Of a stretch of DNA of 64,000 nt, positions 4,465-11,593 are shown in pieces (position 1 is the first letter of the stretch; each line of letters starts with the position of its first letter). The notes below the pieces were generated by a model. It was not told the origin of the DNA. It did not search any database and was given only the letters and a program-made list of their open reading frames with translations. The DNA lies in assembly GCA_022820505.1 (NCBI GenBank), contig JAJEFK010000053.1, forward strand, positions 62,001 to 126,000. The letters are read 5' to 3'. The stretch is from Acidimicrobiia bacterium. Its GTDB lineage: Bacteria; Actinomycetota; Acidimicrobiia; Acidimicrobiales; Poriferisodalaceae. Position numbers and translations under genes: made by a program.

Positions 4465-5454
4465 GTGGCATTCGCCGATCTGGATCAGTCTGAAGAACTG
4501 CTGGTCAAGGCGAGATGGCGGGACAGCCCGCTTTGCCCTCGATGCGACAGCGAGGGCGCAGAGATACGGGACAAGCCCGTCCGGATTGAGTGGACCACTT
4601 GGCGTTGCGGCAGCTGCCGAACACGGTTCAGGGTTACGACAGGCACCGCGCTGCACTCCACGAAGCTGACGCCGTCGGACTGGATTGCTGTGGCGAGCAT
4701 GGACGGGCTCTCGGCACCCCGCATCGCTGCGGCAATCGATGTCTCACTGGTCACCGCTCGCAAGATCGCTGCGGTGATGGCGCCGGTGCGCGACGGCTCG
4801 CGGTCGGAGCGGGTGCGGCACATGATGAGTCCACGCCATCGGCATCAGCCTGCGACCGACCCGTGGCAGATTGATCCCTTACCGGCCACGCTGCGTGCCG
4901 AAGCGAGCCCGCTCGGGTCGCTGAGCGACGGGGCCAAGGCTGTCCTGAACGCCTTGCGGGCCCGGCCGTTCGGAGCGACCGCAGCGAAACTCACGGAGCT
5001 TGCCGGCGTGTCCTATGCACAAACACTGCGGTGCCTCGCCCGCCTCGAGGAACGCGGCTGGGTCGAAGCCGCCAAGACCAGCATCCACCATGGATACGAA
5101 CTGCGCCGCGCAATCGTGTGGTCACTGTCGTGGTCAGACGGCTGCATGCATGCGCTGTCGTACCTTCGTGACCGGCCGACTCGCCCAGTCGAGGAGATCC
5201 CCGACCGCGTGCCTCGCCGCTTTTGGCGCAACTTCTGGTCGGGCGCATCGGCCGACACGCTCAGAATCTCCCAGCACGGCCTGCATATCGCCGAGACGCT
5301 GATCGGTGGGCACGACGCGTCCGCTAGAGCCTGGGCGCTCGCGAACCTGCCGACACCCGCGCTGCGCGAATGCCGCACACTGCGAGGATTTGAAACCGAC
5401 TGGCTGGCCGAACTGCTCGATCAAGAGATCACCCGCCGAGCGGTCGCAGCGTGA
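4465..5454 (+). CDS. AbiEi-like antitoxin/regulator with IS1595-transposase-like zinc-ribbon HTH N-terminus
   Basis: A 329-residue protein. Residues 20-110 resemble the DNA-binding half of IS1595/ISXO2-type transposases: a zinc ribbon (C24/C27 and C48/C51), then FRVTTGTALHSTKL, then an HTH with VSLVTARKIAAVMAPV. No DDE catalytic domain follows. Residues about 153-205 form a winged helix (ATAAKLTELAGVSYAQTLRC), and 248-329 is a helical tail of the kind seen in AbiEi-type antitoxins. The stop overlaps the start of the nucleotidyltransferase gene by GTGA, as in antitoxin-toxin pairs. The GTG start at 4465 has no clear Shine-Dalgarno site. What is seen: the domains and the coupling. What is inferred: antitoxin and operator-binding role. 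A plain transcriptional regulator remains possible. Confidence 0.7.
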   Translation: MAFADLDQSEELLVKARWRDSPLCPRCDSEGAEIRDKPVRIEWTTWRCGSCRTRFRVTTGTALHSTKLTPSDWIAVASMDGLSAPRIAAAIDVSLVTARKIAAVMAPVRDGSRSERVRHMMSPRHRHQPATDPWQIDPLPATLRAEASPLGSLSDGAKAVLNALRARPFGATAAKLTELAGVSYAQTLRCLARLEERGWVEAAKTSIHHGYELRRAIVWSLSWSDGCMHALSYLRDRPTRPVEEIPDRVPRRFWRNFWSGASADTLRISQHGLHIAETLIGGHDASARAWALANLPTPALRECRTLRGFETDWLAELLDQEITRRAVAA

Positions 5455-6143
5455 GCGAGATCGACGCATGGGCCGATGTCTTGCCGACACGCCTGCGGCA
5501 GGCATGGCCGTACGTCGCTGAGTGCGCCAACAGTGTCGGCGGCGTGCTGATGGGAGGCACCGCGGTGGCCATCCACCTGCGGCACCGGGTCTCCGAGGAT
5601 CTCGACGTAGTCACGCTGCGGAAGTTCTCCGGGCGGGCGATAGAGAAGCGACTCCAGCGGGCAGCCTCGCACGTGGAGACCGACGAAGTAGCCGACAACA
5701 TGTTCCACGGCTACGTCGACGGCGTGCGGGTCGACATCTTCCGGGCACTGCCGTCCGATGACGTGCAGCCATCCGATATGCGATGGGTCGCTCCTAGCAC
5801 CACTATCGGACACATGAAGATCGGCTCCATCGCAGATCTCATGGCCGCCAAGCTTGACGTGATCAGATTCCGCCCCAAGCTACGCGACTACCTGGACCTC
5901 GCGGCGATGGACCAGTCAGGAGTCTGCAGCCTCGAAGCCGGATTGGGCTACTACTGCCGACGGTTTGGGCACAGCTACCCGCCGCGGGCGCTCGAAGAGA
6001 TCACTCGCCTGCTCGACAGCCCCGGTACGCTGCCGAGCGACCCCGACTACGACGACCGCCGTGACGACGCGCTGCACCATCTGCGGATGCGGGTACCAGC
6101 ACTCCGCAACCGAATCGCCGAAATGCGCGACACCGCCCCGTAA
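5451..6143 (+). CDS. AbiEii-like nucleotidyltransferase, probable toxin
   Basis: A 230-residue protein of the AbiEii/AbiGii (COG2253-like) minimal nucleotidyltransferase type. The polymerase-beta-like motif is LMGGTAVAIHLRHRVSEDLD at residues 33-52, with the GG pair at 35-36 and acidic pair D50/D52. The C-terminal motif RPKLRDYLDLAAM is the usual helix in this family. Known AbiEii toxins transfer nucleotides to targets such as tRNA and cause reversible growth arrest or abortive infection. The GTG start overlaps the upstream gene's stop (GTGA), so translation is coupled. All visible catalytic residues are intact, so it is not an obvious pseudogene. Confidence 0.78.
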   Translation: MSEIDAWADVLPTRLRQAWPYVAECANSVGGVLMGGTAVAIHLRHRVSEDLDVVTLRKFSGRAIEKRLQRAASHVETDEVADNMFHGYVDGVRVDIFRALPSDDVQPSDMRWVAPSTTIGHMKIGSIADLMAAKLDVIRFRPKLRDYLDLAAMDQSGVCSLEAGLGYYCRRFGHSYPPRALEEITRLLDSPGTLPSDPDYDDRRDDALHHLRMRVPALRNRIAEMRDTAP

Positions 6144-7391: not shown

Positions 7392-7430
7392 ACCATCCCG
7401 TCGGCGCTGGGGTCACTCGGAACCAACCAC

Positions 7431-7739
7431 CTAGCCCGACGGAGCCGAAAAACTACCAGACGCGGCCGACGAGGGCTTGTGATGACTGCGGTTCCCCGCC
7501 ACATCGGCAGCACTTCGATACATCGACCGCCACTTCACAAATGCTCGACGCACCAAGTGTGACAAGTAACCGAGAATATAGAACGCTGAGGCGACGCCGA
7601 ATCCAACCCATCCCCCGACGGCTCGTGAGATCGAGATCGCCATCGTGGCAATCATCGCCTGAACCAGACTCGGCAAGCTCAGGAAGACATCCCAAAGCAG
7701 CGACCACGCTCGGAGCGGGAGAAGCAGCAACCTCACCAT
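7431..7739 (-). CDS. Possible small membrane protein
   Basis: A 102-codon minus-strand frame starts at the ATG where repeat B ends. It has a hydrophobic run at residues about 2-30 and a second at about 35-65 (VGGWVGFGVASAFYILGY), then a basic, Ser-rich tail. No family is recognised and no clear Shine-Dalgarno site is seen. The frame is continuous upstream with the Calx-beta tail of repeat B, so it may be only a read-through extension of a remnant rather than a gene. Its hydrophobicity is the only argument in its favour. Confidence 0.25.
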   Translation of the reverse strand: MVRLLLLPLRAWSLLWDVFLSLPSLVQAMIATMAISISRAVGGWVGFGVASAFYILGYLSHLVRRAFVKWRSMYRSAADVAGNRSHHKPSSAASGSFSAPSG

Positions 7740-7747
7740 CGCGCCAT

Positions 7748-8045
7748 CCCGGAATGCCTCGATGGCAAGTGATCCAATGCTCGCACGGCGATACGCTGTG
7801 CATGAGGGATCATGGCTGTCACGGTAGGCATGCCAATCATATCGAGGGCGGAGGCCGTCCTGTCCCCGAGTTCGGGTGATGACTTTGGCGCCTTCGACGG
7901 CGGCGAGATTGACCAAGATCTGCCCGGTGCTACGTATCCATGCATCGTCGTCGAACTCTACAAACAGAGCCACCTTGCTGTTGCCCTCGCCGACAGTGAC
8001 TTGGCCTGCGGCCCGGTTCTTGGCCCAGCCTCGCTCCCAATAATC
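7748..8045. repeat. Direct repeat copy B (~300 bp, diverged)
   Basis: Second copy of the repeat at 6232-6530, same orientation. On the minus strand it encodes YWERGWAKNRAAGQ and then KVALFVEFDDDAWIRS, matching copy A (YWVRGWAKNQTAGQ), but the stop codon used in copy A is not conserved here. Homology ends near gatggtga at its minus-strand 3' side and near the PDYW codons at its 5' side. Confidence 0.8.
7812..8045 (-). pseudogene. Calx-beta protein tail fragment (in repeat copy B)
   Basis: The minus strand encodes the same ~75-residue C-terminal tail as the fragment at 6324-6941 (RGWAKN, GEGNSKVALFVEFDDDAW). It has no upstream Calx-beta domains, no start and a different ending. Both tails are absent from the large protein at 8269-11593, which stops at ITDND. 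That protein may therefore have lost such a tail, or these fragments come from a different paralogue. Confidence 0.55.
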
Positions 8046-8268: not shown

Positions 8269-11200
8269 TCAGTCATTGTCGGTGATAGTGGCTTCTGCGA
8301 TGCCGTCGCCCAAGGTGGCGTAGGTGGTGTCCACCAGCAGCAGCCGCAGCAAGAACGTCTCGGATCCCTCGCCGCCGACGTCGTCGTCGATCAGTGAGAT
8401 CCGCACCGTCTTGGAGGTGTCGCCCGACGCGAACGTGACTTGGCCCCACTCGGGCAGATAGTCGCCGTAGGCCGTCGCGGTGGCACCCGGCACGGAGTAG
8501 TACACCGTCACCGAACCAGCCGCTGCAGTGCTCATCTCCACCGTGAAACTGACCGAGCCGTCGCCCTCACCCGCAGACACGTCACCCACCGAAATCGACG
8601 GTTTCGACGTCGGCGGTGCCGGGTCGTCATCATCCGCAATTGCGACGGTGGCTGTGCCAGCGGTTGCGGACACCGTGTAACCGCTGCCGGCGCTGATCGT
8701 CGCAGTGGCCGACCCGTCGGCCTCATCGGTGCTGTCATTCGTCGTGGTCACCGTCAGCGTGACGCTGCCCGACATGGGGATAGTCACTTGTCGCGACCCG
8801 GTCGCGACACCGAAGTCGCCGGACTGGGTAACGGTCACATTCACTGTCAGCGGCGCAAACAGAGCCGGATCGGCAGCAAGCGTGAACACAGCATCGCCGC
8901 CCTCAGTCATCCCGCTGCCTGCCGTAATGCTCACCACAGGGTCAGCTGGCGGTGCATCGTCATCATCGGACACCGGCACCGACGCCGAGTTTGCGGACTG
9001 ACGCACTGTGTAACCTGTTCCGTCGCCCACCGTGGCTGTCACCGAGCCGTCGGCCTCGTTGGCGTCGTCATCGGATGTCGTGATCGTCAGCGATCCGGTG
9101 CCTTCGGTCGAAATGACCACCTGATGCGACACGGCAGCCACACCGAAATCGCCCGACGACGTCACCGACACGTCAACTGTCAGCGGTGCCGACGGCGCTG
9201 GCGACGCAGAGACGGTGAAGATTGCCTTGCCGCCTTCGGTCACGGCATCACCTCCACTGACGCTCACCTCTGGCACAGTGCTACCGTCAGCTGTTGACGT
9301 GCTCTCCTTGTCATCACTACAGTTAACTGACTTGGCGACTTCCGCCCCTCCACTTCCTGCCGAGGGACCGACCAATACAACGAACACTCCAACGTACGGA
9401 ACTCTCCCTAGCGTCTGTCTCACGACTCCTTGCGCAACGGTGAAGCCAGCATCCGTTAGCGCACCACAGATGATCTCTGCATGGGCACTGTCGTCAAACA
9501 GCGACGCTGTCTTGGGACTAAATTCTGACGTCGACACTAAAATCGGACCGCTTCGCGCGAAAACTTGTTCCAACCATCGCATATTGTCCTTGACGAGCGA
9601 AGGAAGGGCTCTTCCTTGTTCCTTCTCGTATTCCTGAATGGCAGCCTCTAGATCGTAGCCCGATGCATGCCCAATCGCCGCTAGCTCGTAGTGACGCATA
9701 CAGAAATCGAATGCTTCACCGATATCAGGGTTAGCTCCTAGGACGCCGCTGCGTGACTCGGGGCACAAGATCGGGCGTCCTTGAGCATCTACATCAAACG
9801 GACTCCATAGAGTGGTGTTGGGGTTGACGATGCCGGACTTCGTTGTCCTTCGCGTGCACTCAAGTTGAACGATGTCGTGGCCGCCACCGGGCGGAATCCA
9901 ACGCTCGGTGTGGCCCGTACAGGATTCTCGCGGATGCACGCCACAGTTCGCATGACCCTTCGTATCAGTGTGACGATGCATTTGACGGGCCAAGTACCCG
10001 CTACTCACTGGACAGTCAATATCGGTAGGGCATGGGACGTCCTGATGAGTGTTTGTCGCAGAGTGCTTCGTATAGGTCCCCGAGCAGCGGGTGGGAACCT
10101 CGTGATTGTCATGGCACGATGACACGGGCTCGCCATCGAAACGATGTTGACCGTCAGAACACTCCAGATAGGTACATTTCGGGGTTGAATCGGGAGAATC
10201 TAGCCTATAACCCTCAGAGCACTTGTACTGGAAGCACATCGCTGTCGGCGAAGTCGAGTCCAAGCTATAGCCGTCAGGGCACACATATCGGAAACATTCG
10301 GTAGGAGAAGCAGTCGAGTCGAGTTGATAGTCCGCTGGGCAAACGTAGGTACTACACGTCGGCGGAGTAGTTTCCGGCGTGATCTCCGTGTCTCCTTCGT
10401 CACATGTGTAACGCACAACTCCTGGAAGCACTCGGCTGCAGGTTCTATCTGTGCTGTCTAGCGTCCATGTACTGTCAGGGCAGACTGAGGAACCATTGCC
10501 CAAGTAGGTGCCTGCTGGCCGCTTGCAGTGATTGGTGTTCGTGTCCAACACGTAGGTAGTCGGACAGGTTCGCTTCATGCGCTTCGGATCGAGCTTCACA
10601 GTCCGATCTACCGTTACCGTCACCTCGCGAACCACTGACTTGCAGCACTCCCATCGGGTGCGGGTTTCGTAGTTGTACGCGTCGACCGTCTCGTAGTTGT
10701 AAACGTCGCGCGTCTCATAGTTGTAGGCGTCCACCGTCTCGTAGTTGTACACGTCACGTGTTTCATAGTTGTACGCATCAACGGTTTCTGTCACTGTCTC
10801 AGTGACATTCCTATATGCCCACCGAATACACCCGGTACCGAACTCGTGGTCGTATTGGGCGCAGTAGCGCTGTCGACGTGTGTAGGTCTGGGTTACCGTC
10901 TCAGTGAATGGAGCGACACGAACAGTCTCGGTGTAGGGCGCCTTGCGCACCTGCGCCGTGTAAGGAGCGACACGAACAGTCTCGGTATACGGCGCCTTGC
11001 GCACCTGCGCCGTGTAGGGAGCGACACGAACCGTGTACTCAACTTCATATTGCACTTCGTCAACGGTCGTTCTTACTTCGTCAACCTGAATCGTTTTCTG
11101 ACACTGGCCACCCGTCAACGTCCAGCCGCCACCCGTTGGACAGCTGACAGTTGGGTGAGTGGTGTGCTCAGCGTTCGTGACGCAACGTCGGCCGCTAGCA

Positions 11201-11593
11201 GACACCATGACTGACGTGCCGTAGGCCGAGCAATCGGTATCGGCATCTTTGACTTCGCGCTTCTCGCAGCGCACTGGCTGCGGAGCCGGATCGCTTACCT
11301 CGACGAGGTCAAACCCAGCGATACAGTATGGCTTCGCGACATATGTGGATGTGGTCGGAGTGACGGTGCTGCGAGTAGCGCTGACCGTTTCACGTGTAGC
11401 TTCGACCGTTTTGCCAGTCGCTGAATCGCTTTCTGGCGGAGACGCCGGCCTAGTCGTCGAAGTCCCGGTAATGGGGGCCGGGGTGGTGGGGCCGTCTACC
11501 CCCCCCCCCCTTCTGCATCGCAGCCGCAGGGGTAAGCGGCAGGAAGAACAGGCAGGACAGGGTCACGACAATGGCGACGAGTGCTTTGCGCAT
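8269..11593 (-). CDS. Large secreted Calx-beta/Tyr-repeat protein, interrupted by a poly-G tract
   Basis: The body is an open frame from about 11274 (and in fact from the poly-G tract at about 11499) to the stop at 8269. The signal peptide (MRKALVAIVVTLSCLFFLPL, then TPAAA) starts at 11593 in another frame. The frames join if the G run at 11499-11510 had 11 instead of 12 residues, giving about 1107 residues. Order: signal peptide; Thr/Ser-rich stretch; 18-residue VRVAPYTAQVRKAPYTET repeats; 8-residue DAYNYETR repeats; Cys-rich ~20-residue repeats (CPDGYSLDS type); a globular part I cannot place; three Calx-beta domains (DDDANEADGSVTATV type). It is probably surface-exposed or secreted. It is either phase-variable, broken, or carries a sequencing error at the homopolymer. 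Confidence 0.72.
10150..10350 (-). repeat. Cys-rich ~20-residue repeats
   Basis: About three to four copies of a C-x4-(Y/H)-x-LDS-x(5-7)-C unit lie here (CPADYQLDS, CPDGYSLDS, CSEGYRLDS). The spacing suggests small disulphide-bonded modules, in keeping with an extracellular protein. Confidence 0.7.
10668..10790 (-). repeat. YNYET tandem repeats (48-bp unit, 24-bp half-unit)
   Basis: The coding strand repeats an 8-residue unit (V/R)D(A/V)YNYET five times, alternating VDAYNYET and RDVYNYET, so the DNA period is 48 bp with a 24-bp half period. Copies differ at silent positions. The block is bracketed by TETVTETV and a Cys-containing segment (RWECCKSVV). Confidence 0.85.
10905..11035 (-). repeat. 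VAPYT tandem repeats (54-bp unit)
   Basis: Two full and one partial copy of a 54-bp unit encode VRVAPYTAQVRKAPYTET (18 residues). On the plus strand the unit begins ggagcgacacgaac. Copies are nearly identical at the DNA level, which implies recent expansion. Confidence 0.85.
11499..11510 (-). repeat. 12-nt homopolymer (poly-G on the coding strand)
   Basis: Twelve consecutive C on the plus strand (G on the coding strand) lie about 28 codons inside the signal-peptide ORF of the large repeat protein. With 12 G the frame ends in RDFDD and a stop about 20 codons later. With 11 (or 14) G it continues through VDGPTTPAPITGTSTT into the 1001-residue body. Such tracts are classical sites of slipped-strand mispairing. 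Confidence 0.85.

Follow-up and report, generated by a model that had tools for sequence, protein, structure and literature searches.

The best-known examples of phase variation are found in small-genome bacteria that live with animals and people. Among actinobacteria, Bifidobacterium breve UCC2003 carries two sortase-dependent pilus clusters with intragenic G11 and G10 tracts, in which the loss of one G fuses the frames, and slippage in these tracts was measured by deep sequencing and found to be shifted in the host (PMC9187656). For Streptomyces coelicolor, a G8/G7 tract in pglX, a phage-defence methyltransferase gene, is described with switching frequencies of 10^-2 to 10^-4 (PMC4365076). 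In Gardnerella, the median genome has 20 G/C tracts at least 8 bases long, which lie mostly near 5' ends, in surface-protein and methyltransferase genes, and are variable between colonies (PMC11287997), and related work exists for M. tuberculosis (PMC11898584, PMC8339072). A sequence-only reading of the locus presented here had called such switches rarely described in high-GC actinomycetes; as far as the cited excerpts go, S. coelicolor pglX, the B. breve pilus genes and Gardnerella are precedents that make them less rare than stated. Literature searches for phase variation turned up no case from Acidimicrobiia or from sponge symbionts, aside from co-mentions that include Pseudomonas-in-sponge work. 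Our analyses suggest that the G12 tract studied here is probably a contingency locus, predicted to vary by slipped-strand phase variation and to belong to a phasome that spans a genus lacking MutS.

The tract lies on the minus (coding) strand of the window, i.e. the whole 64,000-nucleotide stretch of DNA that was analysed, and consists of exactly 12 G at positions 11499-11510 (12 C on the plus strand). In the direction of transcription, the ATG at 11593 opens a signal peptide (MRKALVAIVVTLSCLFFLPLTPAAAMQ; start codon and signal peptide at 11511-11593, minus strand), recognised through visual inspection and a hydropathy rule and ending in ...PLTPAAAMQ, which is followed by AA, the 12 G, and TAGACGG.... 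As deposited, the frame from this ATG yields a 47-residue truncated peptide that begins MRKALVAIVVTLSCLFFLPLTPAAAMQKGGGG... and then stops (11450-11593, minus strand, stop codon included). At 12 G, the body of the gene is in a different frame from the signal peptide; it runs from the tract over 1076 residues without a lesion to its stop codon at 8269-8271 (8269-11499, minus strand). With 11 G both frames join, and the resulting (3325-1)/3 = 1108 codons encode 1107 residues. Translation and arithmetic therefore agree with what the sequence-only reading had proposed, namely that the tract parts the signal peptide from the body, that the loss of a single G restores a protein of 1107 residues, and that the body frame is open over 3 kb with no other lesion. 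Between the last upstream stop and position 11274, the body frame contains no ATG, GTG, or TTG, so that without slippage only a 1001-residue product lacking the signal peptide could start. The GTG at 11274 was considered as the true start and is disfavoured because it would make no use of the signal peptide, which is conserved, or of 75 body codons that are under selection. The length of the tract is far beyond chance: G/C runs of lengths 1-7 number 22770, 6905, 1526, 327, 58, 9, and 1 in the window, dropping three- to ninefold per added base, and are followed by the lone run of 12; 0.02 tracts of this length are expected in the window, and one was present in 2 of 100 dinucleotide-preserving shuffles.

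The product of the joined frames is safely described as a large secreted protein, and it may well be displayed at the cell surface. Its body comprises, in order, a Thr/Pro-rich stretch, repeats of types VRVAPYTAQVRKAPYTET and VDAYNYETRDVYNYE (read from the sequence at approximately 10660-11030, minus strand), a Cys-rich region, and a C-terminal Calx-beta domain (8272-8583, minus strand; profile match to PF03160 at 49.3 bits, cut-off 27). Inspection of the focal protein by eye for a sortase signal, i.e. a C-terminal LPXTG-like motif and membrane anchor, found none, the Calx-beta end reading ...GIAEATITDND. Structure prediction for the first 743 body residues from a 5-row alignment gave a mean pLDDT of 39.6 and a pTM of 0.22, with long strands suggested in the repeat region only. 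The N-terminal part is common to proteins of genomes G002, G004, and G008 and to a second gene of the sister-species genome G009, at about 30% identity; in the homologous family of G004, no tract of 8 or more was found nearby. The strand of the focal gene also carries, upstream of it, a periplasmic binding-protein gene (PF13458), after which come apparent branched-chain amino-acid transporter genes, identified by eye. On the other side, some 2 kb past the focal gene's 3' end, an overlapping pair at window positions 4465-6143 encodes a winged-helix/zinc-ribbon protein and an AbiEii nucleotidyltransferase (PF08843), resembling a type IV toxin-antitoxin system.

An ortholog of the focal gene is present in G009 (JAJECP010000035.1, MAG jk18xAbins.26), which appears to be an Ircinia-sponge MAG, judging by a name form shared with a survey of Ircinia sponges (jk18x7bins.61). 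That Caribbean survey, with its jk18x names, reports Calx-beta motif proteins among the enriched eukaryotic-like proteins of the symbionts in the part cited here (PMC9531527). From upstream of the start through about 1.3 kb, the focal and G009 DNA are 94-99% identical and differ by only two indels, one in the tract itself (C+9 G at L052:6724-6732 in G009 versus 12 G, net -2) and the other an extra G009 base at window position 10894. Inspection of the homologous locus in relatives, which had been proposed as a check, found the tract in place but at another length in the sister species. Translation of the G009 copy would end immediately after its tract, which is out of frame, and the extra base at window position 10894 breaks the frame a second time; among the two species carrying the focal gene, both out of frame at the tract, no intact copy was found. 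Such length differences are common: when tracts of 9 or more in the loci of the genus with both 60-nt flanks at least 78% identical were paired (22 pairs), length differed in 20 of 22 and was equal in 2, and it differed in all 6 pairs with clean edges, the lengths being taken from draft assemblies, one per species, and uncertain by a base or two. Of 26 intragenic tracts, hand-picked because the peptides on both sides were clear, 6 keep the reading frame and 20 break it, somewhat under one third yet compatible with it.

These comparisons bear on the possibility of an assembly or consensus error, in which the true tract would be 11 G, the gene intact, and switching absent. Homopolymers are error-prone and the genomes are drafts (61 contigs here), but a one-G error would still leave an 11-G tract in place, the independently assembled sister is likewise out of frame at the same site with its C+9 G, and nearly all homologous pairs differ in length. 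Error could therefore alter the state assigned to the gene, not the existence of a slippage-prone tract, and we regard it as a very unlikely explanation. Long homopolymers can also cause RNA polymerase slippage and ribosomal frameshifting, and the G12 tract might act in expression, giving a steady mix of products from one DNA sequence, which would explain the conservation of both halves of the gene as well. A fixed frameshift signal should, however, hold its phase, whereas homologous tracts vary in length and phase, as in a helicase-like family where the G12 of G002 is in frame whereas the G13 of G008 and the G11 of G001, which share identical 60-nt flanks, are both out of frame. Some tracts, moreover, precede the start codon and so lie outside any translated frame (that of C7, described below), and a tract that works during expression is accordingly very improbable.

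The substitution pattern between the two species is in agreement with the phase-variation reading. Over the first 27 codons, which encode the signal peptide, the focal gene and G009 show zero differences. Selection on both frames was judged from this one species pair only, with a dN/dS of 0.20 for body codons 1-340 (23 synonymous and 15 non-synonymous differences) and of 0.34 for the C-terminal part, versus 1.88 and 0.86 in the two other frames of the same N-terminal DNA; third positions hold 53 of the 93 substitutions (p = 2.4e-6). The dN/dS values and the third-position bias suggest that the body has been translated and selected since the two species parted, and the low dN/dS indicates that the out-of-frame body is under purifying selection and therefore not, as far as codon comparison can tell, a decaying pseudogene. 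A permanent frame break in a decaying gene would account for both assembled copies being out of frame and for the second break in G009, but it is hard to reconcile with 1076 open residues without a stop, with constraint on both parts of the body and its third positions, and with an identical signal peptide, which makes it highly improbable. The alignment also delimits a central module of about 1 kb (roughly 9300-10330, minus strand) that is unrelated between the species, with flanking DNA 91-99% identical on both sides, as if the module had been exchanged.

In the mechanism that we favour as the simplest, replication slippage (slipped-strand mispairing) would add or remove G's in the G12 tract, and the loss of one G or the gain of two would join the signal peptide to the body frame and turn the protein on. 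Cells would in this way switch a large secreted Calx-beta protein on and off, the deposited sequence representing the OFF state, and the benefit might lie in a mixed population facing host cells, phages, or competitors. The G12 locus would then belong to a collection of switches shared across the genus, which are placed at the 5' ends of genes for large secreted proteins, in restriction and defence genes, and in double-glycine leader peptides. This account fits the repair background of the genus: MutS was found in 0 of 11 genus genomes (11 of 14 control genomes were positive) and NucS in all 11, and NucS is described in the cited excerpt as a mismatch enzyme that leaves indels uncorrected (PMC8228993). 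Features by which phase-variable genes are recognised occur together here, namely a long pure tract, frames that are joined or split by a change of one or two bases, selection on both frames, and a tract that is placed alike but variable in length. The phase-variation interpretation put forward at the outset is thereby strengthened, as a prediction from genomes, by the position of the tract between conserved frames, its other length in the sister species, purifying selection, and equivalent tracts across the genome and the genus. Switching in living populations is strongly suggested by these data, from which we also infer slippage within the population, its reversibility, and its effect on expression.

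The genome that contains the window (G000; 3.29 Mb, 61 contigs) holds 9 G/C tracts of 10 or more at 7 loci, of which 8 are of 11 or more and 6 of 12 or more, versus 61 runs of at least 7. For the whole genome, Markov models based on the window predict 94-526 runs of at least 7 and 0.01-0.65 of at least 12, depending on model order, so that runs of middle length are depleted and long runs are in excess. Five of the 7 loci are at the 5' ends of giant secreted-protein genes, including the focal gene (C43), and the other two lie within a leader peptide and a type IIG gene. On C12 (L032 3-4847), 11 C directly behind a signal peptide put out of frame a 1615-residue frame with a PPDK_N (ATP-binding) domain, an odd pairing with a signal peptide. 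On C16, 12 G just 5' of a signal peptide precede a frame of 1301 residues that contains Calx-beta and fn3 domains. C7 and C40 carry tracts of 10 and 11, respectively, some 40 nt ahead of open frames that span at least 2117 and at least 2669 residues, both of which start with a signal peptide and hold Calx-beta. The C7 tract is upstream of a GTG start with an in-frame stop directly before it; since this tract is outside the coding frame, a length change there would be expected to act on transcription or initiation.

The two remaining loci of this genome belong to other gene classes. On C21 (L034 7392-11280), 13 G lie inside a type IIG restriction-methylase gene, which is out of frame and whose relatives in G003 and G004 are likewise split. 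PglX was weighed for this gene because of the S. coelicolor precedent and was rejected, with E values of 1.6e-191 for type IIG restriction-methylase versus 4.1e-6 for PglX. Behind the G13 tract, a low-complexity stretch contains two more tracts, of 15 and 18 bases, and clusters of G- and C-runs such as G000:C21:61664-61742 and that on G004:C22 may be partly artefact. On C51 (L036), 13 C in the leader of a small peptide (MSDAKVEKAS..VEADVDERELTSEELQDVSGGG..) put it out of frame. Two double-glycine leader peptides are encoded there (7711-7857 and 7411-7614), one with the 13-C tract and the other having lost it, with the GG leader ELTSEELQDVSGGG and a neighbouring peptidase-C39 ABC exporter (PF03412 at 4.8e-31). 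Matches to family models were all below cut-off, and we consider the peptide a candidate phase-variable bacteriocin-like precursor; in G003 (L158), the two copies have a tract of 10 in frame and a tract of 12 out of frame.

Tracts of 11 or more are present in all 11 genomes of the genus (154 in total, 4 to 23 each), whereas the 28 other genomes of the family hold 3, in 2 of the 28. The genus site set, made up of 107 regions and further loci, comprises the tracts listed for the genus, with a few of the 154 outside it, and holds 159 tracts of 10 or more; leaving out tracts less than 600 bases from a locus end and keeping only the first of each cluster gave 104 sites. A site was counted as signal-peptide-adjacent when a segment with the hydropathy of a signal peptide lay no more than 70 residues downstream or immediately upstream and the best-coding frame held a body of at least 120 residues. 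This was so for 46 of the 104 tract sites, versus 43 of 416 random sites and 12 of 83 G6-7 runs in the same loci, i.e. odds ratios of 6.9 (random sites) and 4.7 (G6-7 runs) with p = 6e-14 and 1e-5, p-values that are generous because a hydropathy rule was used and homologous genes were counted repeatedly. Other tracts of the genus lie in restriction-methylase and helicase genes and in leader peptides, and some in plain low-complexity stretches or at contig ends; an even spread over housekeeping genes was not seen in the loci examined. Mutation bias alone, by which functionless long G-runs would accumulate without indel repair in a genus that lacks MutS, is extremely improbable given that runs of 7 or more fall below the models and those of 12 or more exceed them, that tracts cluster at gene starts and signal peptides, and that the other genomes of the family are nearly without them.

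Several further observations were made on these loci. In four species, the gene for a large helicase akin to HmaA/DrmD/BrxH models (L187, L202, L214, and L223) contains a tract of 11, 12, or 13, which is in frame in one of them. In L137 (G010:C31), two C13 tracts at 8744-8882 flank one signal peptide, the first in frame and the second out. L128 (G004:C43) starts with a 53-C run at a contig end (1-53), and long G- and C-runs alternate in L124, L125, L195, and L216; contigs often break at tracts, and such runs may be partly assembly artefact. Within the order, one or more tracts of 11 or more occur in 129 of 298 genomes, mostly one to three each, with dozens in some lineages. Other families of the order include tract-rich genomes (G308, G183, G254, and others; 20 regions, L225-L244), with tracts before signal-peptide-like segments in L229, L232, L234, L237, and L243 and many elsewhere; by eye, the L234 protein resembles the C16 protein of G000. 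These tract-rich genomes in other families suggest that the tract habit may have arisen several times in Acidimicrobiales.

Together, these data make a phasome likely for this uncultured Acidimicrobiia genus, of which at least one species is probably an inhabitant of Ircinia sponges. Its 4 to 23 tracts per genome would switch giant secreted Calx-beta/fibronectin-type proteins (by frame or through the 5' leader), defence genes of the type IIG and helicase classes, and peptides with a double-glycine leader encoded next to a C39 exporter. If so, environmental symbionts would practise bet-hedging as bacteria of animals and people do, and the genus-wide set would suggest how symbionts face phages and a filter-feeding host by means of a mixed population. 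Annotation would otherwise record many tract genes as broken or as started at the wrong codon. Calx-beta genes, a class described as enriched in Ircinia symbionts in the cited part of that survey (PMC9531527), are here predicted to carry switches. The finding reaches beyond what the window alone could show, the focal tract being part of a set that spans the genus.

Compared with the described systems, as far as the cited excerpts portray them, the mechanism is known, and the lineage, the scale, and the gene set appear to be new. As in the B. breve pili, a G-tract in an actinobacterium splits a secreted-protein gene into two frames that the loss of one G fuses; unlike B. breve, where pilus operons with a sortase are affected at one or two loci per genome, the gene here encodes a Calx-beta protein in which no sortase signal was seen, and there are 4-23 tracts of 11 or more per genome. 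S. coelicolor pglX is similar in being a defence gene with a G-tract in a high-GC actinomycete, where tract length switches the gene, but it is a single known locus, whereas the defence gene with a tract in the present genome is a type IIG restriction-methylase and not PglX. Gardnerella shares the presence of many G/C tracts in an actinobacterium but is a human vaginal organism with tracts counted from 8 bases, as opposed to 11 or more in an uncultured environmental lineage. The phasomes of Neisseria, Campylobacter, and Helicobacter, on the other hand, resemble the present set in the genus-wide repeat control of surface and restriction-modification genes, and differ from it in belonging to other phyla, the set described here being found in an Acidimicrobiia lineage without MutS and having its tracts concentrated at signal peptides.
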